From: Lachnospiraceae bacterium
GTDB lineage: Bacteria > Bacillota > Clostridia > Lachnospirales > Lachnospiraceae
DNA: 64,000 nt
Assembly: GCA_910574195.1 (NCBI GenBank)
Contig: CAJTBF010000018.1
Coordinates: 1-64,000, forward strand
Reading direction: 5' to 3'
Both the position numbers and the translations under genes were made by a program. The first letter of the stretch is position 1; each line of letters opens with the position of its first letter. The notes under the pieces were generated by a model. It made no database searches. It saw only the letters and a list, made by a program, of their open reading frames with translations, and was not told the origin of the DNA. Of this stretch, positions 42,558-58,490 are shown one piece after another.

Positions 42558-42602
42558 AAGGACATTTTTCTAAAAGAGATTTTAGGAAAGTGTCCTTTTA
42601 TT
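42558..42602 (+). terminator. Terminator after purL
   Basis: An 18-base stem (42558-42575 with 42580-42597, two G-U pairs) contains AAGGACA / TGTCCTT and a four-base loop, followed by TTATT. It begins 42 bases after the purL stop. Confidence 0.8.
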
Positions 42603-43016: not shown

Positions 43017-44366
43017 ATGAGGGCAGAGCAGAAAAAACAGGCAGAGGATTTTATGGAACTTATGGAAACCGCGCATGACGAAATTCGAAAAGCAATGGAA
43101 AAGAAGGATGTCATAACTGCGCAGACTTTGCTGGAGGACTGCCAGAATGGAGCGGTCGCCCTGGGAAACATGATAGAAGAGACGGAAGGAGAAGGGGTTC
43201 CGACGATTCGAGTGCTCGAGGAGTATTGTGATCAGCTTTATCAGATTTATATGTGTCTGTCTTCCGGGCAGACACTCAATGCAAATAAGGCGTATAAGAC
43301 GTTGCGGGGAGTGTTTACCCGGATTGCGAATAGTGTGAAGCATGATATAAGAATATCTCTGGAAGTCGTTTTTCTTCCTTATAAGGCTTCTATGTGGGAT
43401 AGTCTGGAAAGTGTCTGGCAGGCGGCGAATAAGAATCCGGACTGTCATGCGGTTGTGATTCCGATCCCTTATTATGATAAGAATCCGGACGGAAGTTTTG
43501 GAGAACTGCATTATGAGGGAGAACAGTATCCAAAATATGTACCGATTGTAAAGTATGAAGCATATGATTTTGAGAAAAGAAAGCCGGATGTGATATTTAT
43601 TCACAATCCTTACGATGACTGCAATTATGTAACAAGTGTTCTTCCATTCTTTTATTCAAAAAATCTGAAACGATTTACCAAAAAGTTAGTATATATTCCC
43701 TATTTTGTTTTGGATGAAATTGATCCTGACAATCCGGATGAGGTAAAGAGAATCGAAGAATTCTGCATTGTTCCGGGAGTCATTCATGCGGACAAGGTCA
43801 TCGTACAGTCAGAAAATATGCGCAGAGCATATATCAGGGCACTACTGGGACAGACAAATAACACGGCAGAACAGCGCAGGTACTGGAAAAATAAGATTCT
43901 GGGACTGGGCTCTCCCAAGATTGATAAAATACAAAGTACAGGAAAAGAAGATGTGCGGATACCGGAGGAATGGCTTAAGGTGATCAGGAAACCATCCGGG
44001 GAATGGAAGAAAATCATTTTGTATAATACAAGTGTGAGTGCACTGTTAGAATACGGGGAAGAGATGATACAGAAAATGCGCCGGGTGTTTCGAATATTTC
44101 AGGAGAATAGAAAGGACGTGGCGCTATTGTGGCGTCCGCATCCGTTGAGCCGGGCAACGATAGAAGCGATGTGTCCGCAGCTATGGGCAGAGTACCAGAG
44201 GACGATGCAAAGATACAAAAAGGAAGGATGGGGGATTTACGATGATACGCCGGAACTTGACCGGGCAATCGTGATAAGCGACGGATATTATGGGGATTCC
44301 AGCTCATTGGTGACACTGTGCAGGAGAAAAGGGGTGCCGGTGATGATACAAAATCCGGAGGCATAG
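43017..44366 (+). CDS. CDP-glycerol/CDP-ribitol phosphotransferase-like protein (TagB/TagF family)
   Basis: The 449-residue protein has a helical N-terminus (1-110), an alpha/beta domain from about 115 (VVFLPYKASMWDSLESVWQA, VVIPIPYYDKNPDGSFGELH) and a C-terminal nucleotide-binding half with LWRPHPLSRATIE near 375 and a final ISDGYYGDSSSLVTLCRRKGVPVM. The latter two are typical of teichoic-acid glycerol/ribitol-phosphate transferases. It should transfer a polyol phosphate from its CDP form to a glycan acceptor, fitting the CDP-polyol genes at the end of this operon. It is the first gene of the operon, with an AAGGA site before ATG 43017. Confidence 0.75.
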   Translation: MRAEQKKQAEDFMELMETAHDEIRKAMEKKDVITAQTLLEDCQNGAVALGNMIEETEGEGVPTIRVLEEYCDQLYQIYMCLSSGQTLNANKAYKTLRGVFTRIANSVKHDIRISLEVVFLPYKASMWDSLESVWQAANKNPDCHAVVIPIPYYDKNPDGSFGELHYEGEQYPKYVPIVKYEAYDFEKRKPDVIFIHNPYDDCNYVTSVLPFFYSKNLKRFTKKLVYIPYFVLDEIDPDNPDEVKRIEEFCIVPGVIHADKVIVQSENMRRAYIRALLGQTNNTAEQRRYWKNKILGLGSPKIDKIQSTGKEDVRIPEEWLKVIRKPSGEWKKIILYNTSVSALLEYGEEMIQKMRRVFRIFQENRKDVALLWRPHPLSRATIEAMCPQLWAEYQRTMQRYKKEGWGIYDDTPELDRAIVISDGYYGDSSSLVTLCRRKGVPVMIQNPEA

Positions 44367-44407
44367 AAGAATCTGTCCGTAAATGTTGCAGGGAAGAAAA
44401 CAGTATT

Positions 44408-45484
44408 ATGAAAAAGCTAGAAACTTTGAAAAACAGGAGAGATTTTTTTAATTATATTGAAAATAGAGACTGCATCTGTTTTGGCGCAGGAATGCAATTA
44501 GATGAAACCTGCCTGGATGTTCCGGAACTGATCAATAAGATCGCCTGTGTGTTGGATAATAATTCGAATCTGCATGGGACAAACAGAAGGATCGGAAACC
44601 GCCGGATTCCGATTCGTTCTTCTGAATATCTGACAGAATGTAATCCGGAAAAAATGATATTAATTATAACAAGTTCTTATAAAAACGAAATACTTATGCA
44701 GTTGAATTTGGATCGCAGGTATGACGAAATTCCATATACAGATTTTTTTGATATTATGGATATGGCTGCATGGGGTGCAAAAACCCCGGATGCCGACTTT
44801 AGAAAGAACCTTGTTGAGACGATTCCCAGGACGCTTCATTACATCTGGTTTTCAGATAAACCAATTCCCAATGAACTGCAGGAGAATATTGAAGGCTGGA
44901 AAAGGCTGTGTCCTGATTATGAGGTTAAGTGCTGGAACGAAAAGAATTATGACGTAAGTACAAATAAATACATGTATGATGCTTATAAAAAGAAAAGATG
45001 GAGTTTTGTAAGTGATTATGCCCGCCTGGATATTGTGTATCAATATGGCGGAATTTATTTTGATACCGATGTGGAGCTGGTGAGACGGCCGGATGAATTG
45101 TTATTTAATGATGCGTTTATCGGTTTTGAAAGGCTTTCTACTGTAAATACGGGTTCAGGCTTTGGAGCAAGAGCGGGTTTTCCGCTTATCCGGGAGATGC
45201 GCGATCATTATGAAAATGTAGAATTTACCAATAGAGCAAATGCAAATGAAATGATTCTCTGTCCCGTTTACGAAACGGCAATATTGGAAAAGCATGGATT
45301 AAAAAGAAACGGTGATTTTCAGGTCGTTGCGGATATGTCCGTATATCCGGTTATGTATTTTAATGCAAAAAGTCTGTACAGCGATAGATTAAGAATAACA
45401 GATCGGACAATTTCGATTCATAAATGTGCATGGTCATGGGCCGGAGCGAAAAGTAAAATCAGGGAATTCAGAGAGGAAAAATAA
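44408..45484 (+). CDS. DXD-type glycosyltransferase (GT32-like) with N-terminal Rossmann module
   Basis: ATG 44408 is chosen as the first ATG after the preceding stop; the product has 358 residues. Residues about 15-100 form a small Rossmann-like module: ICFGAGMQ at the nucleotide loop, acidic strand end VLDNNSNLHG, then IILIITSSYK. From about 135 the GT32/Gly_transf_sug domain follows: IPRTLHYIWFSDKPIP, YEVKCWNEKNYD, SDYARLDIVYQYGGIYFDTDVELV with the metal-binding DTD near 218-220, and a late HKCAWSWAG. It transfers a sugar in the cytoplasm. The module recurs in five other cluster proteins. Confidence 0.85.
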   Translation: MKKLETLKNRRDFFNYIENRDCICFGAGMQLDETCLDVPELINKIACVLDNNSNLHGTNRRIGNRRIPIRSSEYLTECNPEKMILIITSSYKNEILMQLNLDRRYDEIPYTDFFDIMDMAAWGAKTPDADFRKNLVETIPRTLHYIWFSDKPIPNELQENIEGWKRLCPDYEVKCWNEKNYDVSTNKYMYDAYKKKRWSFVSDYARLDIVYQYGGIYFDTDVELVRRPDELLFNDAFIGFERLSTVNTGSGFGARAGFPLIREMRDHYENVEFTNRANANEMILCPVYETAILEKHGLKRNGDFQVVADMSVYPVMYFNAKSLYSDRLRITDRTISIHKCAWSWAGAKSKIREFREEK

Positions 45485-46903
45485 ATGGCGAAAAAATGCT
45501 ATGCAATTGGAGGAAGAATCAATTTTAATGAAGATACGGTGAGTCTTTGCCATGGGATAGACATCGGGGATAAGATTATCTGGAAAATGGGGGATGACGG
45601 CGAATTTACACCCCAATATTACCGGGAGAAAACGGAGGAACTGAATAAGAAAAATCAGGGAAAACATCCTGCATGTGCTGGCTGCAGTAACCTTCGCGAA
45701 GGGAATGTAACCAGTGAAAAAATAGAAATCATAACGATTAACCCCATGTATTACTGCCAGAATCGATGCATTTACTGTGGAAATTTCCGTGGCGCAATGG
45801 AAAGCAGGTATCATCCGCTTCCTGTCATAAAACAGTTTATGGAAGAGGGAATGATTGCGGAACATTGTTTATTTGACTGGGGCGGCGGGGAACCTACGAT
45901 CAGTGATATTTTTGAGGAAACATTTTTATTTTTACTGCATCAGGGATATATGCAGCGTGTGAATACAAATGCAGTCAAAATGTCGGATGTTGTTTTGCAT
46001 AATCTGGACAAGGGGCCGGTCTCCTTAAGAATCTCACTGGATTCGGGCAATTATGAATCTTTTCTGGCCACAAAAGGCAGAAATCTGTTTCACAGAGTGA
46101 TTTCCAATGTGAAAAAATATCGTGAAAAGACGGAGAACCTTCTTCTGAAGTATGTAATTACAAACACAAATTCAGATGAAAAGTCATTGAACGATTTTCT
46201 GAACCTGGCAGAAAAGATGAAAATAAAAGCGATCTGTATTGATACAGATATGTTGTCGTATGGATGGACGGATTATCCTGATTTGCTGCGCTTTACGGAA
46301 AAAGAACTCCATGCCGCACACTTTCTTCAGAGGAAAGCCCATGAAAAAGGACTGGATGTACAGATCGGATACGTATGGACTGCCAGGGATTATGACACGC
46401 CGAGCCGTGATTTTAACTGTATAAAAAGTATCGAAGAACTGATATTAAACGATGAACGTTATCGTCTTCCGGATTCTTTATCGGAATTCCATATTGCGAG
46501 GATACAGGAATTTTCGGCAGGGATTATGCCGAGAGTGATGGCAAGTTTTGAAACCCTGTTACAGGAAGTAAAGGGCAGACGTGTCATTCTGTATGGCGCA
46601 GGAAAGAATGGAAGAGGGTTATGGAGCGCCTTGAAGGAATTCGGAGTGAAAACAGACTGCTTCTGTGATAAGTATAAGGCGGGGCAGTACGTGGAAGGCG
46701 TACGGATTATAACCGTGGACGAGATGTTAAAAAAGCTGGATGAGGATACGATGGTTGTAATCACTCCCTGTCATGTGCGGGAAATTTTACATGAATTTAA
46801 TGATAACAGATATGAGGAACTTCGCGGGAAATTATATTACATTGATGCATTCAGATTTGGCAGACAGGTATTAGAGGAAATAGAAATGAAGGAGTTCGTT
46901 TGA
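45485..46903 (+). CDS. Radical SAM protein with C-terminal Rossmann module
   Basis: The start codon directly follows the previous stop. The 472-residue protein has the cluster motif CQNRCIYC at residues 90-97, a GGGEPT-like SAM-binding segment (DWGGGEPTISDI near 136) and a TIM-barrel pattern to about 330. An upstream CAGC pair near 63-66 may bind another metal. From about 362 a separate Rossmann module follows: RRVILYGAGKNGRGLWSALK, acidic strand end FCDKYKAGQYVEG, TMVVITPCHVREIL. Within a glycan operon the substrate is probably a sugar or a sugar-linked group, but nothing in the sequence fixes it. Confidence 0.85.
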   Translation: MAKKCYAIGGRINFNEDTVSLCHGIDIGDKIIWKMGDDGEFTPQYYREKTEELNKKNQGKHPACAGCSNLREGNVTSEKIEIITINPMYYCQNRCIYCGNFRGAMESRYHPLPVIKQFMEEGMIAEHCLFDWGGGEPTISDIFEETFLFLLHQGYMQRVNTNAVKMSDVVLHNLDKGPVSLRISLDSGNYESFLATKGRNLFHRVISNVKKYREKTENLLLKYVITNTNSDEKSLNDFLNLAEKMKIKAICIDTDMLSYGWTDYPDLLRFTEKELHAAHFLQRKAHEKGLDVQIGYVWTARDYDTPSRDFNCIKSIEELILNDERYRLPDSLSEFHIARIQEFSAGIMPRVMASFETLLQEVKGRRVILYGAGKNGRGLWSALKEFGVKTDCFCDKYKAGQYVEGVRIITVDEMLKKLDEDTMVVITPCHVREILHEFNDNRYEELRGKLYYIDAFRFGRQVLEEIEMKEFV

Positions 46904-46905
46904 TT

Positions 46906-47991
46906 ATGGAGGTTATTGCATTTTATCTGCCCCAGTATCATGTGATTCCGGAAAATGATAAATGGTGGGGGCAGGGATATACAGAATGGAAAAATGTGAA
47001 GTCGGCCAGACCTTTGTATACCGGACACTATCAGCCAAGAGTTCCCCTGTATGAGAATTATTATGATTTGTCAGATGTAAGTGTGATGGCCGCGCAGGCA
47101 AAACTTGCGAAAAAGTACGGCGTCACCGGTTTTGCATATTATCATTATTGGTTTGACGGGAAAAAATTGCTGGAAAAACCTGTTGAAAATATGCTCCATA
47201 CACCGGAAGTGGAGATCCCCTACTGTCTTGCCTGGGCAAATGAAGAGTGGAAGAAATATTGGTATGGACAGGGTGATGAAATTTTGATGAATCAAAATTA
47301 TGGCTCGCGGAAAAACTGGGAAGCGCATTTTCAATATTTACTTCCATATTTTCAAGACGACAGATACATAAGGATAGACGGGAAGCCCGTCTTTATTGTG
47401 TACCGTCCCGGTGCGATGCGGCAGGGAAAGCAGATGATGGCATGCTGGAATAAGATGGCCCGGCAAAATGGCTTACCGGGAATCTATGTAATCGGCATGA
47501 AAAACTGGGAGTTTGAGACAAGGGCATGTGTCTGGCTGAATGCAATGGTAGATTATGAGCCGACGAAAGAGCAGCGTATGAATATTATGAAAAAAAGAAT
47601 ATATGATCCGGTAAAATTGCGGGCTATGTTTCATTTTGGGCTTTGGAACAGGCTCACCTGCAATGTGCAAAGTTATGCTCGAATTAATAAGGTGATGCTC
47701 AAAGCGCCGCATGCGGAGAATGAATTCAGAGGAGTGTTTGTTGATTTTGATAATACGGCCCGTTCCGGGAAAAATGGATTGATTTTCTATGGAAGCAGCC
47801 CGAAGAGTTTTGGCAGATATTTTTCGGAGCATATTCGGCTGAGTAAAGAAGAGGGAAAAAATCATATATTTGTGAATGCCTGGAATGAATGGGGAGAAGG
47901 CTGTTACCTTGAACCGGACGAAAAATTTAAATACGGATATCTGGAGGCAGTCAGAGAAGCTTTGAAAGAAAATGGTGAATGGGATGACTAA
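46906..47991 (+). CDS. WbsX family / GH99-like protein
   Basis: ATG 46906 gives 361 residues starting MEVIAFYLPQYHVIPENDKW, the standard opening of the WbsX family (glycosyltransferase WbsX / glycoside hydrolase 99-like domain). Further hallmarks are WGQGYTEWKNV, GFAYYHYWFDGKKLLEKP, YCLAWANEEWKKYW and the late VNAWNEWGEGCYLEPD. WbsX proteins occur in O-antigen and capsule loci; the reaction is not settled. A TTG at 46900 overlapping the previous TGA is an alternative start. The stop overlaps the next gene. Confidence 0.88.
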   Translation: MEVIAFYLPQYHVIPENDKWWGQGYTEWKNVKSARPLYTGHYQPRVPLYENYYDLSDVSVMAAQAKLAKKYGVTGFAYYHYWFDGKKLLEKPVENMLHTPEVEIPYCLAWANEEWKKYWYGQGDEILMNQNYGSRKNWEAHFQYLLPYFQDDRYIRIDGKPVFIVYRPGAMRQGKQMMACWNKMARQNGLPGIYVIGMKNWEFETRACVWLNAMVDYEPTKEQRMNIMKKRIYDPVKLRAMFHFGLWNRLTCNVQSYARINKVMLKAPHAENEFRGVFVDFDNTARSGKNGLIFYGSSPKSFGRYFSEHIRLSKEEGKNHIFVNAWNEWGEGCYLEPDEKFKYGYLEAVREALKENGEWDD

Positions 47992-48472
47992 ATTTTTTTG
48001 TATGCTGTGTGCGGCTTTGATCTGTACTTTTATCACAGGAAGCACAGTATGGAAAAAATATAAAGAAAAATACGAGGCTGATTTTGCGAAAGAAAAAGAG
48101 AATGTCGCCAAATTTATAGCATATTATGACCTTTTTACCAGATGGATTGCGCTGGATCAGGAGGGCAGGAGATTAAAAGATTTTTTTGAGGAAAATCATT
48201 ATAAATCGGTTGCTGTCTATGGAATGAAGGAGGCCGGAGAGCTTCTCTATCACGCGATAAAAGACTGCGGCCTGGATGCCGTATATGCGGTGGACAGGGC
48301 TCCGGAACGATTAAATCTGGATCTGGATATCCGGAAAACAGTGGATGAAATACCGGACGTGGATGTGATTGTGGTGACACCGATACATTACTTTGCATCA
48401 ATTCAGTCAGAATTATCGAATCTTACAACGGCTGCGATTATTTCAATAGAAGATGTAATATGGGGGATCTGA
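47972..48472 (+). CDS. Stand-alone Rossmann module with N-terminal membrane anchor
   Basis: The 166-residue protein overlaps the end of the previous gene by 20 bases (or by 8 if ATG 47984 is used). A hydrophobic segment (about residues 7-24) is followed by a short helix. A lone Rossmann-like module starts at about residue 75: YKSVAVYGMKEAGELLYHAI, acidic strand end YAVDRAPERLN, DVIVVTPIHYFASIQSEL. The glycine-rich loop is degenerate (VYGMKEAGE). It has no catalytic domain, unlike the five relatives in this operon. It could tether or regulate the other enzymes at the membrane; this is inference. Confidence 0.7.
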   Translation: MVNGMTKFFCMLCAALICTFITGSTVWKKYKEKYEADFAKEKENVAKFIAYYDLFTRWIALDQEGRRLKDFFEENHYKSVAVYGMKEAGELLYHAIKDCGLDAVYAVDRAPERLNLDLDIRKTVDEIPDVDVIVVTPIHYFASIQSELSNLTTAAIISIEDVIWGI

Positions 48473-48556
48473 TTTATGCGGGGACAAAATACCTGTTTCC
48501 TTCCACATTCATTTCCCCGTCCCGCTTAACGGGAATTCAACGGAAAGGATTGTTGC

Positions 48557-51500
48557 ATGATGCGGTATATTTACTCATTGTCGGATATAGACGGCCCGGT
48601 GTACATATACGGTACAGGCATGGTTGCCAGGCTTCTCTATCAATATTTAAAAAGAAGAAATGTTATAATAATCAATTTTCTGTTAAGTGATTGCACGGAA
48701 GGGCGGCGTTTTTTCGGGATACCCGTTATCCCGGTTCATAAAATGCGGGACAAAGAACAGATTATTATAGCGACTTTATCGGATTTGCACCAGGCAATCG
48801 CGGATAAGTTAAATGAGCGGTTTTTGCATAATTACTATGCGGTGAGCGAAACATTTTTTTATGAAATGAGAAAGAGTCTGGTTTCAGAAAAAAGGGAAAA
48901 GGCTTCCCTGAAGTTAAGGTACAGCGAGATGAGAAAGCTTGCGGGGGAGGAAGATCAAAATCCGCTCATTGTGACGGATCATGAACTGTTTGAAAGGAAA
49001 CATGCAAGGGTAATATCCGGTACACAGTTTTTATGTGAAGAGCCCGTGCTCGATAAAGGCTCCCCGTCCGGGCATCCTGTATCCGATGTGCTTTACACAG
49101 GTGAACCGTTTTCACGGTTCGATAAGGTATATATATTTTCGATAAGATGGGATTTGGACTGGAAAAGCATGGTCAGAAAAGCTTTTGCGTATTATGAGAA
49201 TGTCGTTTTATCGTTCCGATATAAATTTGTTCATTTGCAGGGATATTCTTTGATTGGGGAAGCAAAAAAAAGCGGAATGCAGGTCTGCAGAACGAAACGT
49301 TTTTACCGAAGTCAGGAAGAATATTTTACAGAGGATGTTCTTTTCTTTTTTACGAAAAGAAAAATCTCGGCCATAGAGCAGGATGCATTGTGTACCGGCT
49401 GTGGACTTTGTGAATTAAATTGCCCGGGAGACGCAATTACGCTTGTTGAAAATAAATATGGTTGTAAAAAAGCGCATGTAGATCGTACCCGGTGTATAGA
49501 TTGCGGGAAATGTCTGTCTTTCTGTCCGGTTTATAAGGTGGGTGTTTCAGGCGGCGTTCCGGTTACTTATGTGTACAGTGGGGAAGATGAGATCAGAAAA
49601 CATAGCAGCAGTGGGGGCGTTTTTGGGACCATTGCAGCAAAAATCATAAAGGACGGCGGATTTGTCTGCGGCGCTGCCTGGAAGGATAAACTGCAGGTGG
49701 AACATTTGCTCATTGATGACCTGTCCCGTCTGACAGAATTGCAGATGTCCAAATATATTCGCAGTGATATTCGACAGGCAATGCTTCAGGTAAGGGAAAG
49801 GCTTCTGAAAGGGCAAAGGGGTCTCTTTGTCGGGTGCCCCTGTCAGGTTGCAGCGATGAAGGAGTATTTGGGGACGCTGGCAGATACCGTATATTTTATT
49901 GATTTAATCTGTTCGGAAGCGCCGTCGGGCTGGTTTTTTGAAAAATATTTTCACGAAAATACGGATCTCGATATGATAAAGTCCATTAGCTTCCGGGAGA
50001 AAGCGGACGGCTGGCGGCCGGACACGCTGGTGATTCATTATACAGATCGTGAGTCGGAAATCAGGCATATGGAGGATATTTCACAGCAGGCATTTCATAG
50101 CAGAATGATGATGGATTATGGCTGTGAACATTGTAATTATGTGAATCCATCAAGAATAGGAGATCTGTCGATCGGCGACGCATGGGGAGTCCCGGAAAAC
50201 AGCATAAACTGTGAGGACAGATATGGTACCAGTATTGTACTGGTGAACAGCGAAAAAGGTACGCAGCTTGTTTCGATTCTTGAAAGGAATCATACATTTT
50301 TTAAAAGGATTCCCTTTGCATGGACGTTTAAAAACAGAACGGTCGACTGTATACATCCCCATGAAAGGAGAGACCGGTTTTATCGGGAAATTTTAACGCA
50401 GGGGTTTCAGAAAGCTTTCCATAATGCGCAATCGAATCTATATGATATAGGGCTTGTGGGAAACTGGAGTTATCCGAATTATGGTTCGGAACTGACCTAT
50501 TTTGCTTTATATCATGTACTGAAAGATTTAGGGTATACAGTACTGCTCATTGAATGGCCGGAAAACAGTCCATGGAAACCTTATGGCTGTACACAGTTAT
50601 TTGAGATCGAACCATATGAAAATGATGAGATCGCACAACCTGCAGAAAACTGTTTTAAAATGATGAATTACAATGAAAGATGCCGTATGTTCCTTCTGGG
50701 TTCGGATCAACTGTTGAATCCGGACCTGTATTGGGCTTTTGGACGTAGCGCCATTTTAGACTGGGTTCATCCGGAAAAAAAGAGAATCGGATATGCCCTG
50801 TCCATAGGAAGCGCAAAAGTACAGTACAGCGAGTCTGACAGAAAGAAAATTTCCTATTATTTACAAAAGTTTGACGCAGTATCCGTACGGGAGGAATCCG
50901 CAGTCCGGCAGATGGAGGATTTGTTTCATGTAGAAGCGAAATGGGTTCTGGATCCTGTATTTTTGTGTAATCGGAACCGGTACGCTGCATTGGCAGAAAA
51001 TTGTACGGCGAAAAAGACGAAGGGTATTTTTGCCTATATTTTAGATTTAAATTCTGAAATTCAGGAAAAATTGCAGGAAACCGCAAAAGAGCTTGGGGAA
51101 GAGATTTACATGGTTACAGATGCGGCAAAATTGGAAGATTTCAATGAGAAAGAAGTTATTTCAGTGGAACAATGGCTTTTTTATCTGATTCATTGCAAAT
51201 ATTTCATTGCGGACTCTTTTCACGGAATCAGTTTTGCCATGATTTTCCACAAAAAATTTGCGGCCATAAAGAATGAAAATCGCGGGGAAACCAGATTTGA
51301 CTCCATTTTAGGTATGCTGGATTTGAGAGACAGAATGCTGACCAGCGGAGAGATTCATAAAGTAAGTGATATTTTAAAAAAGGGGATTGATTATAAAAGA
51401 ATCGATCAGATGATTGAGAAAAATAAGAAGGATTCCATAGAATGGCTTGTATCTGCATTAAAAGCGAAGCATCAGAATAAATATGACGAATCTGATTTTA

Positions 51501-51559
51501 TATTTGAAAGACATAGACAAGAGTTAGAAAAGATGATTGCGGACAGGATGCAGGAATAA
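48557..51559 (+). CDS. Four-part fusion: Rossmann module, 2x[4Fe-4S], FrhB-like, polysaccharide pyruvyl transferase
   Basis: The 1000-residue protein has, in order: a Rossmann module (about 12-100: VYIYGTGMVARLLYQYL, then LLSDCTEGRRFFGIPVI); a linker of about 170 residues without a recognised motif; two ferredoxin clusters (CTGCGLCELNCPGD near 278, CIDCGKCLSFCPVYK near 313); a coenzyme F420 hydrogenase/dehydrogenase beta-subunit-like region (about 335-610: HSSSGGVFGTIAAKII, GCPCQVAAMKEYL, CEHCNYVNPSRIGDLSIGDAW); and a pyruvyl-transferase domain (about 630-930: GLVGNWSYPNYGSELTYFAL, SDQLLNPDLYW, DSFHGISFAMIF). It may couple a redox step to adding a pyruvate ketal to a glycan. Start is one of two adjacent ATGs (48557/48560). 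Confidence 0.85.
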   Translation: MMRYIYSLSDIDGPVYIYGTGMVARLLYQYLKRRNVIIINFLLSDCTEGRRFFGIPVIPVHKMRDKEQIIIATLSDLHQAIADKLNERFLHNYYAVSETFFYEMRKSLVSEKREKASLKLRYSEMRKLAGEEDQNPLIVTDHELFERKHARVISGTQFLCEEPVLDKGSPSGHPVSDVLYTGEPFSRFDKVYIFSIRWDLDWKSMVRKAFAYYENVVLSFRYKFVHLQGYSLIGEAKKSGMQVCRTKRFYRSQEEYFTEDVLFFFTKRKISAIEQDALCTGCGLCELNCPGDAITLVENKYGCKKAHVDRTRCIDCGKCLSFCPVYKVGVSGGVPVTYVYSGEDEIRKHSSSGGVFGTIAAKIIKDGGFVCGAAWKDKLQVEHLLIDDLSRLTELQMSKYIRSDIRQAMLQVRERLLKGQRGLFVGCPCQVAAMKEYLGTLADTVYFIDLICSEAPSGWFFEKYFHENTDLDMIKSISFREKADGWRPDTLVIHYTDRESEIRHMEDISQQAFHSRMMMDYGCEHCNYVNPSRIGDLSIGDAWGVPENSINCEDRYGTSIVLVNSEKGTQLVSILERNHTFFKRIPFAWTFKNRTVDCIHPHERRDRFYREILTQGFQKAFHNAQSNLYDIGLVGNWSYPNYGSELTYFALYHVLKDLGYTVLLIEWPENSPWKPYGCTQLFEIEPYENDEIAQPAENCFKMMNYNERCRMFLLGSDQLLNPDLYWAFGRSAILDWVHPEKKRIGYALSIGSAKVQYSESDRKKISYYLQKFDAVSVREESAVRQMEDLFHVEAKWVLDPVFLCNRNRYAALAENCTAKKTKGIFAYILDLNSEIQEKLQETAKELGEEIYMVTDAAKLEDFNEKEVISVEQWLFYLIHCKYFIADSFHGISFAMIFHKKFAAIKNENRGETRFDSILGMLDLRDRMLTSGEIHKVSDILKKGIDYKRIDQMIEKNKKDSIEWLVSALKAKHQNKYDESDFIFERHRQELEKMIADRMQE

Positions 51560-51576
51560 CCGGAAAGGGGAATTGA

Positions 51577-52692
51577 ATGTGCGGGAAATACAGACAAAGA
51601 ATTCATTTTAGAGATGCATACCGGATGGATGACCAGTCGATCCTTTTTTCGGCTGTCGAGATGAACGGATTATTTGTGCAGAAATTGGATGACAATAAAG
51701 CAGAATTGCGATGCAAATTCACGGAAGAGGATGAAATGCAGGATAATCTGCATAGCCAGATCGTTATAGAAGGGGAGACGTTGTATTTTATACCTTTAGA
51801 GGGACGGGGAATCAGTAAATATGATCTGAAGACCGGAAAATTGAGAACGATTCTGTTTAAAAAGGTGGAGCATTGCAGGTTTATAAGAGCTTTTCTGATC
51901 GGAAAAGATATTTTTTTAGTTCCGATGAACAACAGTTCCCATTTTTGTGTTTTTCATACAGAAAACGAATCCTATGAACTATTGCATGCATTAGAAAACA
52001 AAATCTGGAAATACATTCCGGATGTGGAATATTGGCTGGATCCGTTTTCAGTCACTTCGAACGGGAAAACCGTCTATATGGCGCCCTCCAAAAAGAATCA
52101 GATCCTTTGCATTGATGTAGAAAATAATAAGGTTGACGGGAAGGAAATAAAAGAAAACAGCAGCATAGATTCCATGGTATATTTTGAAGAAAAATTGTAT
52201 CTGTATTCTGACGGTTTAAAATCAGTCCTGAAATATGACCCGAAAAAGGAGGAACTTGCCACCCTTTTCTGCGACTGTGATCAGGAAGAGGAGACGATTT
52301 TGGTTGAGCATAAAGGGAACATCATCGGGGTTGCAAAATCTCATATTTTCAGTATGGACCCGGCTGCGGGAAAGAAAGAATTCGAGATAACTATTCCGGC
52401 CGGTTTCGGAATAAGAAATACCGGGTATAAGTTACTTGCAGGAAAAAGAGAAATGGAAAATCAATTATGGATTATGTCTGCAAGCGGCTCCGGAACATTA
52501 AAGATTTCAAATCGGAACTGTCAGATTATGGAATCCCATATTGCAGATTCTTTCAGACAAAAAATAAAAGAATATGAGAAAGAACGTCGAAAGAGAAACT
52601 TAAGAATGGTGTTGGAAACAAAGGGAATCGTTGCGGAAAAAGAGTTTGAAGAGGCAGATTTAAAAAATTTTATGGATGTGCTGTTGTCATAA
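51577..52692 (+). CDS. Hypothetical beta-propeller-like protein, 371 aa
   Basis: The 371-residue protein consists mostly of short repeated beta units with a pattern like DNLHSQIVIEGETLYFIPLE, then GISKYDLKTGK and DSMVYFEEKLYLYSDGLKSV, each about 45-50 residues, suggesting a six- or seven-bladed propeller. The last 60 residues are a charged coiled coil (about 325-360). No signal peptide is present, so it is probably cytoplasmic despite the propeller fold. It starts 17 bases after the fusion gene behind GGAAAGGGG and is cotranscribed. Not recognised; a scaffold or glycan-sensing role is only speculation. Confidence 0.7.
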   Translation: MCGKYRQRIHFRDAYRMDDQSILFSAVEMNGLFVQKLDDNKAELRCKFTEEDEMQDNLHSQIVIEGETLYFIPLEGRGISKYDLKTGKLRTILFKKVEHCRFIRAFLIGKDIFLVPMNNSSHFCVFHTENESYELLHALENKIWKYIPDVEYWLDPFSVTSNGKTVYMAPSKKNQILCIDVENNKVDGKEIKENSSIDSMVYFEEKLYLYSDGLKSVLKYDPKKEELATLFCDCDQEEETILVEHKGNIIGVAKSHIFSMDPAAGKKEFEITIPAGFGIRNTGYKLLAGKREMENQLWIMSASGSGTLKISNRNCQIMESHIADSFRQKIKEYEKERRKRNLRMVLETKGIVAEKEFEEADLKNFMDVLLS

Positions 52693-52738
52693 AAACTGTT
52701 TTTTCTGCTTGCGAATGTAATATATGAGGGATTTTATT

Positions 52739-54301
52739 ATGAACCGGATTAAGATTGGCGCGCCGTATATGGAAAAAAAGGAACAAAAAAGAAAAGTGAT
52801 TGTGCCGGTGACGATTGTGGAAGAAGGAGTTTGGAGGAAGTCCGCTCTTTGGTATGAGGTAGATTCACAGTTCGAAAAATATCTGTACCTGGACAGAGTG
52901 GATCCGTTTGTGACGGCGGTTCTGCCTTACTGTATGAAAAACGCTTTTGATATAGAGGTGGATCAGCAGACGGGTGTTTCGGAAGATCTGTTATTTCAAA
53001 TCAGGTGTATATTAATTCCCACCATGGCGATGGCCGATAAGTTCCAGGGGATAGAATTCCTGTCCGCCCCTGTCCGTGAACCGCTTATAAACGGAACAGG
53101 AGTTGCCACGGGGATTTCGAGAGGGGTGGATTCCTTTTATACCATTTTGAAATCTTTTGAGGGACCATATAAACCAGATTATTTCACGTTGTTTAATACG
53201 CAGGCTTATGGGGAATATGGCGGAGAAGCATCGGTACAAATGTTTGAAAGGGATTTCAAAATTGCGGAAAAACTATGCCTGGAATTAAACGACTTATACG
53301 GTTCTGAGGTGAAGATCCTGGCGGTTCATTCCAATATACAGGAAGTATTTCCGATCAGGATATATGATGCCGGTTCCTTCCGGGATGCGGGAGCGATTCT
53401 TCTTCTGAAACAATTGATCGGATTGTATTATTTTTCCACGACGGTTTCTTTAAAAGATTTTACCGTAAACGGAAGCTGCAGAGAATTCGAACCATGGCTG
53501 TTTGCCTGTCTTACAACAAGTGCGCAAAGGATTCAACCGGTAGGCGCGGATAAGCGAAGAATCGAAAAAGCAGAATATATTGCGGATTACCCGATAACAT
53601 ATAAATACTTAAAAGTATGCAGAAAGCCCCTGATGTGCGGAACAGACGGAGAGGAATATGCGAAGGACATAAATTGTACCTCATTGTGTGAAAAATGTAG
53701 GTGCACGGTATTGGAGTTCATGGCTTTAGGCAAATTACATCATTATGATAAAGTGTTTGATCTGGATTGGGTTGAAGCGCATAAAACGGAGTTGTTATAT
53801 GAAGTTATAAGTAAACAAAACCAAAAAGGAGAATTAGATTTTTCGGACATATATACGATACTGAAATATCAAAATGTGATTGACGACTATATGGAGATGG
53901 AGGTAGGTCTTCATGTGGATGCTGTGTGGGATGCCCCTCCGGACAGAGATTACAGAATTCTAGAGCTGATGGATAAATTTTTTGAAAAGGTGCAGGAGGG
54001 GATGTGTATTTCCTCCTGCTTAAGACAAAAAGATATCAACCGTGTAGGAGTGTATGGCTATGGCCGTTTGGGAAAGCTGCTTTGCAGGGAAATAGGATTC
54101 GATGCGTTGTATGTAATCGACAGAAAGGATACCGCCGTCTGTCATAGCCATAAGCGAAAACCGGATGATGATTTTTCGGATTTGGATCTGATTATTATTA
54201 CTACAGTTTATAATGAAGATAAGATAAAAAAATATTTGTTCCGAAAGGGCGCAGGTAAAGTGATTACGTTATCCGAACTGCTGGATAAGAAATTCTCATA
54301 A
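52739..54301 (+). CDS. PP-loop (adenine-nucleotide alpha-hydrolase-like) protein with C-terminal Rossmann module
   Basis: ATG 52739 lies 9 bases after GAGGGA and gives 520 residues. Near residue 125 is an S-x-G-x-D-S motif (GISRGVDSFYTILK), the pyrophosphate loop of the QueC/asparagine-synthetase superfamily, which adenylates an acid or carbonyl before amine or sulfur transfer. Cysteines near 300-322 (CGTDGEEYAKDINCTSLCEKCRC) probably bind zinc as in QueC-like enzymes. From about 433 a Rossmann module follows: RVGVYGYGRLGKLLCREI, acidic strand end YVIDRKDT, DLIIITTVYNEDKI. A role in amidating or thiolating a sugar is plausible; no known subfamily was recognised. Confidence 0.7.
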   Translation: MNRIKIGAPYMEKKEQKRKVIVPVTIVEEGVWRKSALWYEVDSQFEKYLYLDRVDPFVTAVLPYCMKNAFDIEVDQQTGVSEDLLFQIRCILIPTMAMADKFQGIEFLSAPVREPLINGTGVATGISRGVDSFYTILKSFEGPYKPDYFTLFNTQAYGEYGGEASVQMFERDFKIAEKLCLELNDLYGSEVKILAVHSNIQEVFPIRIYDAGSFRDAGAILLLKQLIGLYYFSTTVSLKDFTVNGSCREFEPWLFACLTTSAQRIQPVGADKRRIEKAEYIADYPITYKYLKVCRKPLMCGTDGEEYAKDINCTSLCEKCRCTVLEFMALGKLHHYDKVFDLDWVEAHKTELLYEVISKQNQKGELDFSDIYTILKYQNVIDDYMEMEVGLHVDAVWDAPPDRDYRILELMDKFFEKVQEGMCISSCLRQKDINRVGVYGYGRLGKLLCREIGFDALYVIDRKDTAVCHSHKRKPDDDFSDLDLIIITTVYNEDKIKKYLFRKGAGKVITLSELLDKKFS

Positions 54302-54341
54302 TGTAATAAATAGAAAAGCAGGAATGGAGATGACATGCATT

Positions 54342-55460
54342 ATGAAATTAAAGAATACGACATATGACGGTCTGGTAAATAAAATCACGAAAAAAAATTG
54401 TCGAATTCTCGTATATGGGGCAGGCGTGATCGGTCAGATCATCGTAACATATCTGCTGAAAGAATATAAATTATACAATTACCTGGACTGTTTTATTGAT
54501 GCGGATAAGAGAAAAGCAGGACAAAGCGTGACCATTGATGCCTGTCAGTATGAAATACGAACGCCGGATTATCTGGATACAGTCGGAAAGAATAATATAA
54601 TCCTTATCACCAACAGTAAATTTTTTCCGGTGGTGAGTTTTCTTGACAGGATCCCGAATTTAAAAGAAATCGAAGGGTATATCATTCCGATGATGCAGAT
54701 TTATAGTATGGAACATTCGGAGTCTGTTACGCTTTGTGAGCAAAGCGAACTCCCTTTGATCCCCAGGAAAATCCACTATTGCTGGTTTGGCGGAAGAGAG
54801 AAACCGGTTTTTCTTCAAAAGTGCATGGAGACATGGAAGGAAATGTGTCCGGATTACGAGCTGATAGAATGGAATGAGAGCAATTATGATGTGAACAGAC
54901 ACGATTATACAAAAGAGGCGTTTGAAAAAGGAAAATACGGATTTGTAACGGATGCGGCAAGATTGGATATTCTTTATGAAAATGGCGGAATATACCTGGA
55001 TACAGATGTAACACTTGAGAAAAATTTAGATATCTTATTATTCCAAAAAGGGTTTATCGGCACAGAAAAATGGGGAAATGTGAATACCGGCGGAGGCTGT
55101 GGATTTGTGGCGAAGCATCCAATGCTGAAAAAGATGATTGACCATAGGGAGCGGTATCACTTTGTTTTGGAGGACGGTTCGCTGAATATGGAAACCTGCG
55201 GTATGTATGAGACAAGAATATTTTTGGAGTGTGGTTTTAAACCGGATAATACTTTGCAGATTGTAAATGATGTCACGGTGTATCCCTCCTACATAAACCA
55301 TCCATACGATTATATGAGCTGTGAAATGCATAAAAAGGAGGCGACCGTCTCTGTTCATCATTTCTATGGCGGCTGGATGGAGGAGGAAGACAGATTGGAT
55401 CGAAAGAATACGCAGGATAAATACCAGGCCGTGAGACGGCGGATGACGGAAGAAACATAA
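54342..55460 (+). CDS. DXD-type glycosyltransferase (GT32-like) with N-terminal Rossmann module, second copy
   Basis: Starting at ATG 54342 the protein has 372 residues; in-frame ATGs at 54324 and 54330 are possible. Residues about 15-115 are a Rossmann module (RILVYGAGVIGQIIVTYLLK, FIDADKRKAGQ, NIILITNSKFFPVV). The GT32 domain follows from about 140: IPRKIHYCWFGGREKP, YELIEWNESNYD, TDAARLDILYENGGIYLDTDVTLEK with DTD near 220, and HHFYGGW at the end. It has the same architecture as the 44408-45484 protein but is clearly diverged, so the two probably add different sugars. Confidence 0.87.
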   Translation: MKLKNTTYDGLVNKITKKNCRILVYGAGVIGQIIVTYLLKEYKLYNYLDCFIDADKRKAGQSVTIDACQYEIRTPDYLDTVGKNNIILITNSKFFPVVSFLDRIPNLKEIEGYIIPMMQIYSMEHSESVTLCEQSELPLIPRKIHYCWFGGREKPVFLQKCMETWKEMCPDYELIEWNESNYDVNRHDYTKEAFEKGKYGFVTDAARLDILYENGGIYLDTDVTLEKNLDILLFQKGFIGTEKWGNVNTGGGCGFVAKHPMLKKMIDHRERYHFVLEDGSLNMETCGMYETRIFLECGFKPDNTLQIVNDVTVYPSYINHPYDYMSCEMHKKEATVSVHHFYGGWMEEEDRLDRKNTQDKYQAVRRRMTEET

Positions 55461-55484
55461 AAGATCATGACGGGAGTGAAAAGG

Positions 55485-56147
55485 ATGCAGTTTCAGTTAA
55501 TGGCGTCTATGATGTGTGCCGATTATGGAAATTTAGAAAGGGAAGTAAACGATCTGGACGAGGGCGGGATTGATTCATTTCATATAGACATTATGGACGG
55601 TCGTTATGTTCCCAATTTTGCAATGTCATTAAACGATATGAATTATATAGCGAGGGCTTCGAAAAAGCCGTTGGACGTGCATTTGATGATTGAACATCCG
55701 AATAACAGGATTCATTTGTTTCTGAACCGGCTGCGCAAGGGCGATACGGTTTACATTCATCCGGAAGCAGAATATCACCCGTCCGCCACATTGCAGAGTA
55801 TCATTGATGCCGGGATGATTCCGGGAATTGCCGTTAATCCCGGTACATCCGTTGAGATGGTGATGGAGATGCTGCGTATTGTGAAGAGGGTTCTTGTGAT
55901 GTCGGTCAATCCCGGCAATGCGGGACAGATGTATCTGCCCTATGTAGGGAAAAAGATTACGAAGCTTCTTTCCCTCAAAGAGGATATGGGATTTGAAATC
56001 TACTGGGACGGCGCCTGCAGTGCGGATAAGATTCTGGAGTATGCACCGAAAGGAGTAAAGGGATTCGTACTGGGAACGACGCTTCTCTTTGGACAGGACA
56101 GGCCCTATGGAGAGACGTTGAAGAAAATACGGAATTTGCAGTTTTAA
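55485..56147 (+). CDS. Ribulose-phosphate 3-epimerase family protein
   Basis: ATG 55485 follows GGGAG by 8 bases; the product has 220 residues. It keeps the epimerase signatures: SMMCADYGNLEREV at the N-terminus, FHIDIMDGRYVPNF with metal ligands, LDVHLMIEHP, GIAVNPGTSVE, MSVNPGNAGQMYLP and a catalytic-aspartate region that reads IYWDGACSADKI where canonical enzymes have VDGGI-type sequence. Divergence at that loop and the location beside cytidylyltransferase and dehydrogenase genes suggest a dedicated biosynthetic enzyme acting on a pentulose phosphate, not the pentose-phosphate-pathway housekeeping Rpe. Confidence 0.85.
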   Translation: MQFQLMASMMCADYGNLEREVNDLDEGGIDSFHIDIMDGRYVPNFAMSLNDMNYIARASKKPLDVHLMIEHPNNRIHLFLNRLRKGDTVYIHPEAEYHPSATLQSIIDAGMIPGIAVNPGTSVEMVMEMLRIVKRVLVMSVNPGNAGQMYLPYVGKKITKLLSLKEDMGFEIYWDGACSADKILEYAPKGVKGFVLGTTLLFGQDRPYGETLKKIRNLQF

Positions 56148-56164
56148 AGGAGAGGCAGAGATTT

Positions 56165-56872
56165 ATGAATATTGCGTTAGTTCTGTCGGGAGGGGAAGGA
56201 AAGAGACTGGATTCGGATATCCCGAAACAATACATAAAAGTATGCGGCAGGCCGATTATTTTATATTGCCTGGAATGCCTGTGTGCCCATAAAGATATTC
56301 ATGGAATTCAGATTGCCGCAGGGGATATCTGGCAGGAAAGGATAAAGAAATGGATGCAAAGAATTGACACAGGAAAAAAGTTCAGAGGATTTTCCAGACC
56401 GGGGGCTACCCGTCAGCTGTCCGTTCTGCACGGACTGGAGGATATCGGAAGATATGCCGGGAAGGACGATTATGTGCTGATTCACGATGCCGCCAGACCG
56501 GTGCTCTCATCCGGGCAGATCACTTCCTGTCTGGATGCGGCCGGGAACCATGAGGGGGCAGTCCCTGTCCTGCCGATGAAGGATACTGTGTACCGCAGCA
56601 GGGATCAAAAAAGGATTACGGATCTGCTGGAAAGAAAGGAGATCTATGCAGGACAAGCACCGGAGGTATTCCGACTGGGGATTTATTATGAAGCAAACAT
56701 AAGGCTTCTGCCGGAACAGATTCTGCATGTGAATGGTTCTGCGGAACCGGCAGTTCTGGCCGGAATGGATATTGCCATGATTCCCGGAGACGAGGGGAAT
56801 TTTAAAATTACTACAAAGGCCGATTTAAAGCGTTTTCAGAGGCTCCAGGAGGAGAAAGAAAACATTCTGTAA
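56165..56872 (+). CDS. Cytidylyltransferase of the IspD/TarI family
   Basis: The 235-residue protein starts MNIALVLSGGEGKRLDSDIP, a variant of the AAGxGxRM nucleotide loop, and continues with KQYIKVCGRPII, DYVLIHDAARPVLS and the family-typical NFKITTKADL. It transfers CMP from CTP to a phosphorylated polyol or to methylerythritol phosphate. ispF lies only 2.3 kb downstream, which would fit IspD, but this gene is inside the glycan operon between an Rpe-like and a polyol-dehydrogenase-like gene, so TarI-type synthesis of a CDP-polyol is favoured. Confidence 0.8.
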   Translation: MNIALVLSGGEGKRLDSDIPKQYIKVCGRPIILYCLECLCAHKDIHGIQIAAGDIWQERIKKWMQRIDTGKKFRGFSRPGATRQLSVLHGLEDIGRYAGKDDYVLIHDAARPVLSSGQITSCLDAAGNHEGAVPVLPMKDTVYRSRDQKRITDLLERKEIYAGQAPEVFRLGIYYEANIRLLPEQILHVNGSAEPAVLAGMDIAMIPGDEGNFKITTKADLKRFQRLQEEKENIL

Positions 56873-57045
56873 AAGAGAAGAAGGACAGAAAAGCAGAAAG
56901 CAAAAAAGAAAACGAAAGGGAGAAGCAGGAAACGCGGGAGAAAAGTGGAAAATACAGGAAAAAGGAAGAAAACGCAGGAAAATAAGGAAAAGTATAGAAA
57001 AGGCAGAAAATACAGGGGAAAAGCGGAAAATGAGAGGAACGACAG
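56873..57045. repeat. Purine-rich low-complexity spacer with degenerate repeats
   Basis: About 170 bases are almost entirely A and G on the plus strand, with recurring units such as GAAAATACAGG and GAAAACGCAGG. It contains no gene. It separates the cytidylyltransferase from the dehydrogenase gene, the largest gap in the operon. Confidence 0.6.
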
Positions 57046-58140
57046 ATGAAAGCGTGGGTTTTACATGGGATTCGTAATATGAGACTGGAAACATGGGAGG
57101 ATCCAATGCCGGCAGACGGCGAGGTAGTCGTTGCGGTAAAAGCGGCGGGTATCTGCGGCTCAGATATTCCGAGGATATATGAGACAGGAGCACATATGCA
57201 TCCGCTGATTATCGGACATGAATTTTCCGGAATCGTGACCGGTTTAGGGGCGGGGGTGGATGTCGGATGGCTTGGAAAGCGTGTAGGTATTTCTCCGTTA
57301 ATCCCCTGCGGGAAATGTCTTTCCTGCCAGAAAAGGGCGTATGAAATGTGCAGGAATTACGACTATCTGGGTTCACGCAGGAACGGCGGATTCGCGGAAT
57401 ACGCGTCGGTACCGGCAGGAAATTTAGTGGAGCTGCCATCGCAGGTTACATTTGAGGAAGCCGCCCTGCTGGAACCAATGGCTGTGGCGGTCCATGCGAT
57501 GAGACGTGCCCGGATTTCTGTTTCCGATACAATCGTAATCTGCGGTCTTGGCACGATAGGACTTCTTCTTTTGATGTTTCTTTTGGAAAGAAAAAAGTTC
57601 GAAAAGGAAGTGTCCCGTCAATTTTCGGGAAAGATTCTTGCGATCGGCAATAAGGAATCTCAGAGAAGGATGGCTGTGAAGATGGGACTTCGTGAAGAGT
57701 ATTATTGTGACAGCAGTGCATATCCGGTTGGGAAATGGCTGACGGAACATACGGGCGGGAGAGGAGCCAATCTGTTTTTCGAGTGTGTCGGAAAAAACGA
57801 AACATTTGAACAGGCAGTGAATTATACGGCGGTGAGCGGCAAGGTGATTTTGGCAGGAAATCCTTATTCGGATATGAAACTCGACAGAGCCGTGTACTGG
57901 AAAATTTTAAGAAATCAGCTTACAATAAAGGGCACATGGAATTCTTCTTTTACAGATGACAGGAGAGATGACTGGCATTATGTAATGAACAGGCTTGTAC
58001 AGAAAAGGATTGCGCCAGTGGAATTGATTACCCACAGATTTTCTTTGGAAAGGCTGGCGCAGGGGTTGGAAATCATGCATGGCAAATCGGAGGATTATAT
58101 AAAAATAATGGTTGCGGTAAATAAAACAACAAGAAAATAA
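57046..58140 (+). CDS. Zinc-dependent medium-chain dehydrogenase (TarJ / polyol-phosphate dehydrogenase-like)
   Basis: The 364-residue protein has the MDR layout: catalytic-zinc ligands in GICGSDIPR (Cys37) and GHEFSG, structural-zinc cysteines CGKCLSCQKRAYEMC near 88-102, and an NAD(P)-binding fold around VICGLGTIGLLLLM near 165. It resembles galactitol-1-phosphate dehydrogenases and the TarJ ribulose-5-phosphate reductases. Next to an Rpe-like epimerase and a TarI-like transferase it most likely reduces a pentulose phosphate to the polyol phosphate that is then CDP-activated. It is last in the operon; no terminator was seen directly after it. Confidence 0.82.
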   Translation: MKAWVLHGIRNMRLETWEDPMPADGEVVVAVKAAGICGSDIPRIYETGAHMHPLIIGHEFSGIVTGLGAGVDVGWLGKRVGISPLIPCGKCLSCQKRAYEMCRNYDYLGSRRNGGFAEYASVPAGNLVELPSQVTFEEAALLEPMAVAVHAMRRARISVSDTIVICGLGTIGLLLLMFLLERKKFEKEVSRQFSGKILAIGNKESQRRMAVKMGLREEYYCDSSAYPVGKWLTEHTGGRGANLFFECVGKNETFEQAVNYTAVSGKVILAGNPYSDMKLDRAVYWKILRNQLTIKGTWNSSFTDDRRDDWHYVMNRLVQKRIAPVELITHRFSLERLAQGLEIMHGKSEDYIKIMVAVNKTTRK

Positions 58141-58450: not shown

Positions 58451-58456
58451 CTTGAG

Positions 58457-58490
58457 AGAAGAGTTTCGCAGGAGACTCTTCTTTTTCTTT
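58457..58490 (+). terminator. Terminator after the tRNA pair
   Basis: AGAAGAGT (58457-58464) pairs with ACTCTTCT (58475-58482) over a ten-base loop, followed directly by a long T-rich run. Confidence 0.85.

Follow-up and report, generated by a model that had tools for sequence, protein, structure and literature searches.

Six proteins encoded in one probable operon of a Lachnospiraceae bacterium were found to share a small Rossmann-type domain, here termed the module, which is joined to unrelated enzymes in five of them and stands alone behind a membrane anchor in the sixth. The operon lies in a stretch of 64,000 nucleotides, referred to as the window (positions 1 to 64,000 of contig CAJTBF010000018.1, assembly GCA_910574195.1), and its genes are designated by their start positions in that stretch. 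The six segments constitute one sequence family, and we propose that the module may dock or cluster glycan enzymes at the membrane, possibly in a nucleotide-tuned manner, a reading to which we give an even chance of being correct.

A single domain family in six proteins of one operon

Genes were called by a longest-open reading frame (ORF) rule. All six ORFs of the original prediction, which had noted a recurring Rossmann-like pattern in these proteins, were found in place, with two of its starts (54342 and 52739) corresponding to internal Met residues of ORFs 54324-55460 and 52724-54301. Its enzyme assignments were matched by Pfam for Gly_transf_sug (GT32-type) in 44408 and 54324, Radical_SAM in 45485, and FrhB plus polysaccharide pyruvyl transferase in 48557, the latter two residing in one chain of 1000 amino acids (aa). 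The PP-loop assignment of 52724 was upheld in part: no convincing Pfam match was obtained, while the protein has an SRGVDS motif and relatives with SGGVDS or SCG(V/I)DS. The pattern itself was common to all six in a general form, in which (V/I)(Y/F)G is followed by a Gly-rich loop, then by a strand whose last residue is mostly Asp and, further on, by one that ends in Thr or Ser; the literal DVIVVTPxHY string was present in 47972 alone.

A hidden Markov model (HMM) trained on 267 modules, all from genomes other than the source genome, was used to scan the 247 window ORFs of at least 60 aa and 4,940 shuffled ORFs as a control. Six of the 247 ORFs were matched, exactly the six named, at full-sequence E-values from 4e-26 for 47972 to 1.5e-9 for 44318/44408 (Table 1), and none of the shuffled ORFs was matched at E ≤ 1. 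As the training modules were collected iteratively from the six, this result is a consistency test that is mildly circular and not fully independent. The operon neighbors WbsX (46900), 43017, 51577 and the alcohol dehydrogenase 57046 were not matched by the HMM. A chance motif was ruled out, given that all six proteins, no other window ORF and no shuffled ORF were detected. An earlier profile, built from an alignment of the six segments and compared with the source genome, had recovered the six and, weakly, four further matches, of which three lie together in one stretch of a contig designated C2. Thus, the profile analysis anticipated by the original prediction joined the six segments as one family; nothing pointed to unrelated folds, with one of the six segments (47972) having been folded, and the assignment to the Rossmann fold, the grouping within glycan loci and the existence of a stand-alone copy at the membrane were all sustained.

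Fold, conserved residues and nearest families

Profile comparisons identify the module as a small domain of the Rossmann type, with the N-terminal domain of PglD/NeuD as its nearest relative and with Rex and PDB entry 3nkl as further relatives. These nearest families bind nucleotides. An alignment of 70 modules (the A2 profile; mean column identity 15%), of which 11 rows are from the source genome (six from the window and five from C2), was used for the comparisons. TIGR03570 (NeuD/PglD) matched 24 of the 70 modules and PglD_N (PF17836) matched 11 at E ≤ 0.01, with a best E-value of 1e-22 that may belong to the row from a genuine acetyltransferase of locus L053. The modules of the window proteins themselves had weak or no matches to Pfam and NCBIfam families: PglD_N matched none of the window proteins, and TIGR03570 matched 45485 alone, below its cut-off (18.2 of 160.8 bits). 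Against PDB, the module profile had its best match to 3nkl (7.5e-12), which we take to be a domain of the PF13727 kind, followed by Rex (2e-10) and, weakly, by WbaP (0.0065); a phmmer search of PDB with 47972 alone gave a best E-value of 0.0018.

Several known domains resemble the module. The PglD/NeuD/VioB N-terminal domain is the family with the most module matches, and two genuine PglD/NeuD-type hexapeptide acetyltransferases (L053:3976-4662, 228 aa; L059:1848-2468, 206 aa; both from the set of 200-260 aa) are matched by the module profile and provide a link to the likely source family. Except for these two of 323 module proteins, the modules sit on other enzymes or stand alone, and no hexapeptide acetyltransferase follows the module in the six window proteins. 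Rex, the redox-sensing repressor, has an NADH-binding domain that gave the next-best PDB matches, and NCBIfam Rex models match up to six of the 70 modules; unlike Rex, the window proteins had no DNA-binding (winged-helix) domain in Pfam and NCBIfam scans. The PF13727 (CoA_binding_3) domain of large phosphoglycosyl transferases such as WbaP is similarly a Rossmann-like accessory domain of glycan enzymes, but there it accompanies a single catalytic domain and a membrane bundle of four helices, whereas the module is swapped between about 30 families and also exists in a stand-alone form with a single helix; PF13727 was also absent from the 19 families to which any of the 70 modules had a match at E ≤ 0.01. 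PF22674 (C2185-like_N) already matches seven of the 70 modules, and three N-terminal modules of other genomes exceeded its cut-off (27 bits) in scans of module proteins, but at E ≤ 1e-5 it has no match in the source genome and was detected in one of 41 genomes. Methyltransf_14, a C-terminal domain of C-methyltransferases, matched five of the 70 modules weakly, while the module occurs on many enzymes.

The features of an NAD(P)-type Rossmann domain were recognized in the 47972 model and in residue counts, including a beta-alpha-beta unit, a Gly-rich loop and an acidic residue ending beta 2. Among 323 modules (described below), the first loop Gly was kept in 313, the second in 261 and the third in 208, with all three (GxGxxG) in 173; the Asp after beta 2 was kept in 280. 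In 47972 itself, Lys replaces the middle Gly of the loop.

Confinement to particular glycan loci

When used to search the source genome, the A2 profile gave 25 matches at E ≤ 0.01: six in the window, 15 on contig C2 at 176-246 kb, and four elsewhere, one of which (a CoA_binding protein of 225 aa) was taken for Rex. At E ≤ 1e-10 all 16 matches lay in the window and this C2 stretch, together about 2% of the genome, a result that is partly circular since A2 includes 11 rows from this genome. With a profile lacking the source genome, modules were detected in 6 of 53 window genes, in 3 of 16, 5 of 16 and 2 of 11 genes of three C2 stretches (10 of 43 in total), and in none of 20 genes of a stretch of contig C23. 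The confinement to the window and the C2 stretches ruled out a random spread through the genome and agrees with an enrichment in glycan loci. The stretches on C2 (L063, L064 and L213; 187-250 kb) constitute a second, larger module-rich glycan region with 15 module matches. The idea that the profile catches any Rossmann domain of a glycan locus was rejected on two grounds: (i) the Zn-alcohol dehydrogenase 57046 was unmatched; and (ii) of the 39 GT2 genes of the genome, 11 lie in the C2 stretch and 28 elsewhere, so that modules mark particular glycan loci and not glycan enzymes generally.

Beyond the source genome, 27 of 299 genomes of the phylum (source included) had a match at E ≤ 1e-10 and 14 had at least two; in 12 of these 14, at least two matches were no more than 25 kb apart. 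Among the loci fetched, 51 had at least three modules.

The module on diverse enzymes and at either end

A total of 323 distinct module proteins was assembled from loci mostly fetched for a relative of 47972, and their frequencies are not population estimates. In a check for profile drift, 278 of the 323 remained at E < 1e-10, with the two genuine PglD/NeuD acetyltransferases included. The module was N-terminal in 135 proteins, C-terminal in 116, internal in seven and stand-alone in 65, and the hosts formed 80 clusters. By one representative per host cluster, the hosts span about 30 Pfam families; naming was based on 40 of 62 host clusters, of which 38 were matched at E ≤ 0.01, some below curated cut-offs. 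The families include GT2, GT4, GT8, GT32, GT92, WbsX, RgpF, LicD, WcbI, NKWYS, capsule synthesis, glycerophosphotransferase, TupA ATP-grasp, radical SAM, FrhB, FkbM, TylF and other methyltransferases, cytidylyltransferase, PIG-L, NAD epimerase, GNAT and others. Module density reached 12 per 20 kb, and loci L058 and L106 had 12 module genes each.

In seven host clusters, the module was N-terminal in some members and C-terminal in others. For 83 of 254 fused host domains, from 16 host clusters, the same loci contained a complete homologue with no space left for a module, a count that leaves out homologues cut by the end of a stretch or possibly hiding a diverged module (as in the radical SAM homologue of locus L054, which has the same layout as the window protein and a diverged module). 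Fusions arose repeatedly, at either end, and on unrelated chemistries. For 178 of the 323 modules (shuffled mean 23), the module nearest in sequence was carried by a host of the same class; for 19 it came from the same locus (shuffled mean 5.9, maximum 16), four of these being on a different host. With the host-class figure far above the locus figure, although the latter still exceeded the shuffles, copying within operons was ruled out as the main source of similarity.

A membrane-anchored module without an enzyme

The family of 47972 is conserved and consists of proteins of about 160 aa with an N-terminal hydrophobic segment. Trp58, Tyr83, Gly84, Gly89, Asp108 and Asp131 were invariant in 30 aligned stand-alone members. 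A high-confidence AlphaFold2 model of 47972 based on 30 sequences (predicted local distance difference test score, pLDDT, 93.1) has one unbroken helix at residues 2-63 (62 residues), membrane end first, followed by a short helix, a beta-alpha-beta unit and further strand and helix units; in this prediction a Rossmann head sits on a long stalk. Membrane helices were called by hydropathy at two thresholds. A 17-residue window at 1.3 applied to the first 45 residues detected a hydrophobic stretch in 49 of 65 stand-alone copies; a common test with a 19-residue window at 1.9 over the whole protein was positive for 26 of 65 stand-alone copies compared with 2 of 258 fused ones. The membrane anchor is therefore almost exclusive to the stand-alone form.

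Carriers of the anchored form include Anaerocolumna sedimenticola, Anaerosacchariphilus polymeriproducens, Anaerosporobacter faecicola, Acetatifactor muris and Candidatus Galacturonibacter soehngenii, and 34 of 39 loci with this form have at least two module genes. A profile of the anchored family matched 8 of 398 phylum genomes at E ≤ 1e-6, several of the matches being fused forms; a relative of 47972, fused copies included, was present in 23 of 200 family genomes. No match for 47972 was found in plasmid and phage collections, and none of the six window module proteins matched PHROGs.

Module carriage as a probable trait of the locus

To escape the bias of module-based fetching, WbsX genes were gathered by their own Pfam family in the 299 genomes. 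Of 56 places listed, 53 were obtained and 51 genes were scored (50 loci at one gene per locus, a few bare loci having only 2-7 genes), among which 16 WbsX genes were fused to a module and 35 were bare. Twenty-eight of the bare genes were in module-free stretches, four were directly beside a stand-alone module, one had a stand-alone module elsewhere, and two had one other module. Within 8 kb, at least two other module genes were found in 15 of 15 fused-WbsX loci vs 4 of 35 bare loci, and any other module in 15 of 15 vs 7 of 35 (Fisher P = 7.6e-8), counts that are not independent, as 14 of the 16 fused WbsX genes form one clade, and that include a few very short bare loci. When neighbors within 8 kb were pooled, 72 of 168 were module genes around fused WbsX compared with 23 of 412 around bare WbsX. 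Loci with no module numbered 28, vs 8.0 in shuffles (maximum of 14 in 2,000 shuffles), and loci with at least three modules numbered 15, close to the shuffled mean of 15.2; the signal is therefore the surplus of empty loci together with the link to fused WbsX. A smaller sample of LicD genes, in which 40 places were hand-picked among the matches listed (10 long frames, the rest mostly ordinary) and 37 were scored, had other modules in 3 of 4 fused vs 4 of 33 bare loci (P = 0.016, on small numbers). Overall, module carriage looks like a property of the locus, with a tendency towards several modules or none.

The WbsX gene of the window belongs to a clade of four (window, L049, L043 and L162; support 100/98 on the WbsX tree), and in all four a stand-alone module gene adjoins WbsX, at gaps of -20, -1, 152 and -43 bases. 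The stand-alone neighbor in L162 has a visible hydrophobic segment that is below the cut-off. In L043, WbsX is additionally fused to a module of the stand-alone type. Two proteins that are fused in one genome and encoded side by side in another give a classical Rosetta-stone hint of partnership, here between WbsX and the stand-alone module, and WbsX 46900 may accordingly be regarded as the putative partner of the anchored module 47972. On the WbsX tree the fused state required three changes, one with an N-terminal module in L179; this 828-aa protein (L179:7512-9998), whose module is N-terminal and not C-terminal, is apparently an independent fusion. Locus L173 has three anchored stand-alone modules together with two module-fused WbsX genes.

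Possible docking at the membrane and its alternatives

We propose that the module may be a non-catalytic, PglD/NeuD-N-like Rossmann domain serving as an exchangeable assembly tag of glycan enzymes. The modules would bind each other or a common partner, and the anchored copy would keep otherwise soluble enzymes at the membrane, the site of lipid-linked glycan building. In the window operon, the enzymes so held would be the neighboring WbsX as well as both GT32 enzymes, the radical SAM enzyme, the fusion with pyruvyl transferase and the PP-loop protein, each of these five by way of the module that it carries. A nucleotide bound in the Gly-rich loop, which is mostly conserved, may tune the contact. 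This docking reading is favored by the near-exclusive occurrence of the anchor in stand-alone copies, the locus-wide carriage, the repeated fusions at either end and the WbsX adjacency. In WbaP, most contacts between the chains are made by the comparable PF13727 domain, which also senses uridine nucleotides (UMP/UDP) (PMC10942596); EpsZ, a WbaP relative, is activated by a response regulator that is modeled to stabilize the EpsZ dimer (PMC12802240). As the WbaP domain both contacts chains and senses nucleotides, docking and sensing may be one mechanism. In its fullest version, the docking reading would make the PglD-N-like domain a plug used universally by dozens of enzymes of unrelated kinds, with the membrane-stalked stand-alone copy as its socket, a proposal that we consider somewhat less likely than not.

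A number of observations weigh against docking. No stand-alone copy was seen in the C2 stretch, where none of the 15 matches lies in an open frame below 350 aa, so the C2 modules would need the stand-alone copy on contig C18 or none; likewise, for 12 of the 51 fetched loci with at least three modules, the stretch fetched lacks a stand-alone copy, which counts against a strict hub. The few same-locus nearest modules give little sign of interfaces co-evolving within operons. The similarity to WbaP is weak, and the relatedness of the fused WbsX genes weakens the locus-trait statistics. Finally, retention of the first loop Gly and the beta-2 Asp suggests a bound ligand and fits ligand binding equally well.

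The last point leads to the main rival of docking, a shared allosteric sensor, in which the modules would bind one common ligand (UMP/UDP, a UDP-sugar or NADH) and switch their own enzymes, such that the pathway follows one metabolic signal and the stand-alone copy senses at the membrane. The nucleotide-binding nature of the nearest families (TIGR03570, PglD_N and Rex, as well as the WbaP domain with UMP/UDP), the two retained residues and the evolution of modules along with their own enzymes are consistent with this model. The full GxGxxG is present, however, in only about half of the modules and its middle Gly is Lys in 47972, and the model does not readily explain an enzyme-free anchored copy or host clusters in which the module may sit at either end; we consider a shared sensor possible but somewhat unlikely. 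By analogy with PglD, whose domain binds the UDP-sugar substrate, the module could instead grip a sugar nucleotide or the growing glycan and hold all enzymes on the same acceptor. While PglD_N-type homology and the predominance of glycan enzymes among the Pfam-named hosts agree with gripping, the host chemistries are diverse (glycosyl, methyl, cytidylyl and phospho-transfer, radical SAM and iron-sulfur) and part of the hosts have module-less homologues, making this quite improbable. That the module is a passenger, a small domain readily copied by recombination in glycan loci and tolerated without a common role, is suggested by its great mosaicism and low identity; yet key residues are kept, fused and bare enzymes segregate by locus, and the anchored family is conserved, and we regard this explanation as highly improbable.

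Other genes of the operon

The positions of the six modules and associated genes are listed in Table 1. Terminator-like stems were detected at 42558-42597 and 58454-58485 in a pattern scan whose total of 15 stems was close to the 12.2 of shuffles. The first gene, 43017, had a weak likeness to glycerophosphotransferase (E = 0.04), and the 371-aa protein encoded at 51577-52692 had neither a module nor a convincing family match. The FrhB-type iron-sulfur domain of 48557-51559 has relatives in L057 and L107 that carry the module C-terminally instead. The PP-loop-like domain (52724-53923), in which SRGVDS replaces SGGxDS, has Cys motifs near its end; relatives were found in 5 of 298 other family genomes, with tandem copies in two, and had a C-terminal module in G538, with none found in G525, G146, G548 and G108. 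At the end of the operon (55467-58140) are genes for ribulose-phosphate-3-epimerase-like, IspD/ribitol-5-phosphate-cytidylyltransferase-like and Zn-dependent polyol-type dehydrogenase proteins, a set that could make a cytidine diphosphate (CDP)-polyol such as CDP-ribitol.

Table 1. Module segments and associated features of the window; E-values for modules are from the HMM built without the source genome, with those of the 70-module A2 profile marked A2
Feature	Positions	Strand	Evidence
Probable operon with all six module genes	43017..58140	+	ORF order and gaps
Rossmann module, N-terminal, on GT32-type glycosyltransferase (ORF 44408-45484)	44408..44764	+	E 1.5e-9; 3.7e-14 (A2); host Gly_transf_sug 1.1e-15
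Radical SAM enzyme, module C-terminal	45485..46903	+	Radical_SAM 2.1e-11
Rossmann module, C-terminal, on radical SAM enzyme	46538..46894	+	E 4.6e-16; 2.2e-21 (A2)
WbsX-type glycosyltransferase without module, 20-base overlap with next gene	46900..47991	+	PF14307 3.4e-128
Stand-alone module, N-terminal membrane helix and helical stalk	47972..48472	+	E 4e-26; model pLDDT 93.1; conserved family
Rossmann module, N-terminal, on FrhB/polysaccharide pyruvyl transferase fusion (ORF 48557-51559)	48557..48895	+	E 1.4e-9; 1.4e-17 (A2)
PP-loop-like protein (SRGVDS), module C-terminal	52724..54301	+	Motif and relatives
Rossmann module, C-terminal, on PP-loop-like protein	53963..54298	+	E 5.4e-11; 1.6e-18 (A2)
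Rossmann module, N-terminal, on second GT32-type glycosyltransferase (ORF 54324-55460)	54324..54722	+	E 6.8e-11; 2.5e-14 (A2)

Significance

By sequence comparison the fold is already known, with PglD_N nearest and a few copies already matched by Pfam C2185-like_N. In the open-access literature, with most subscription papers outside the search, no description was found of the locus-wide use of such a domain with an anchored stand-alone form. How glycan enzymes that have no membrane segment are recruited and ordered at a lipid-linked acceptor is, in our judgement, little understood, and a domain common to many enzymes of a cluster, together with an anchored enzyme-free copy, makes this question testable. 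Were the plug-and-socket arrangement true, a cluster could gain or swap enzymes and still build one membrane complex. As a genome signature, the module would help to find complete glycan assembly lines, including members that lack annotation, and it could serve as a ready-made scaffold in glycan engineering.

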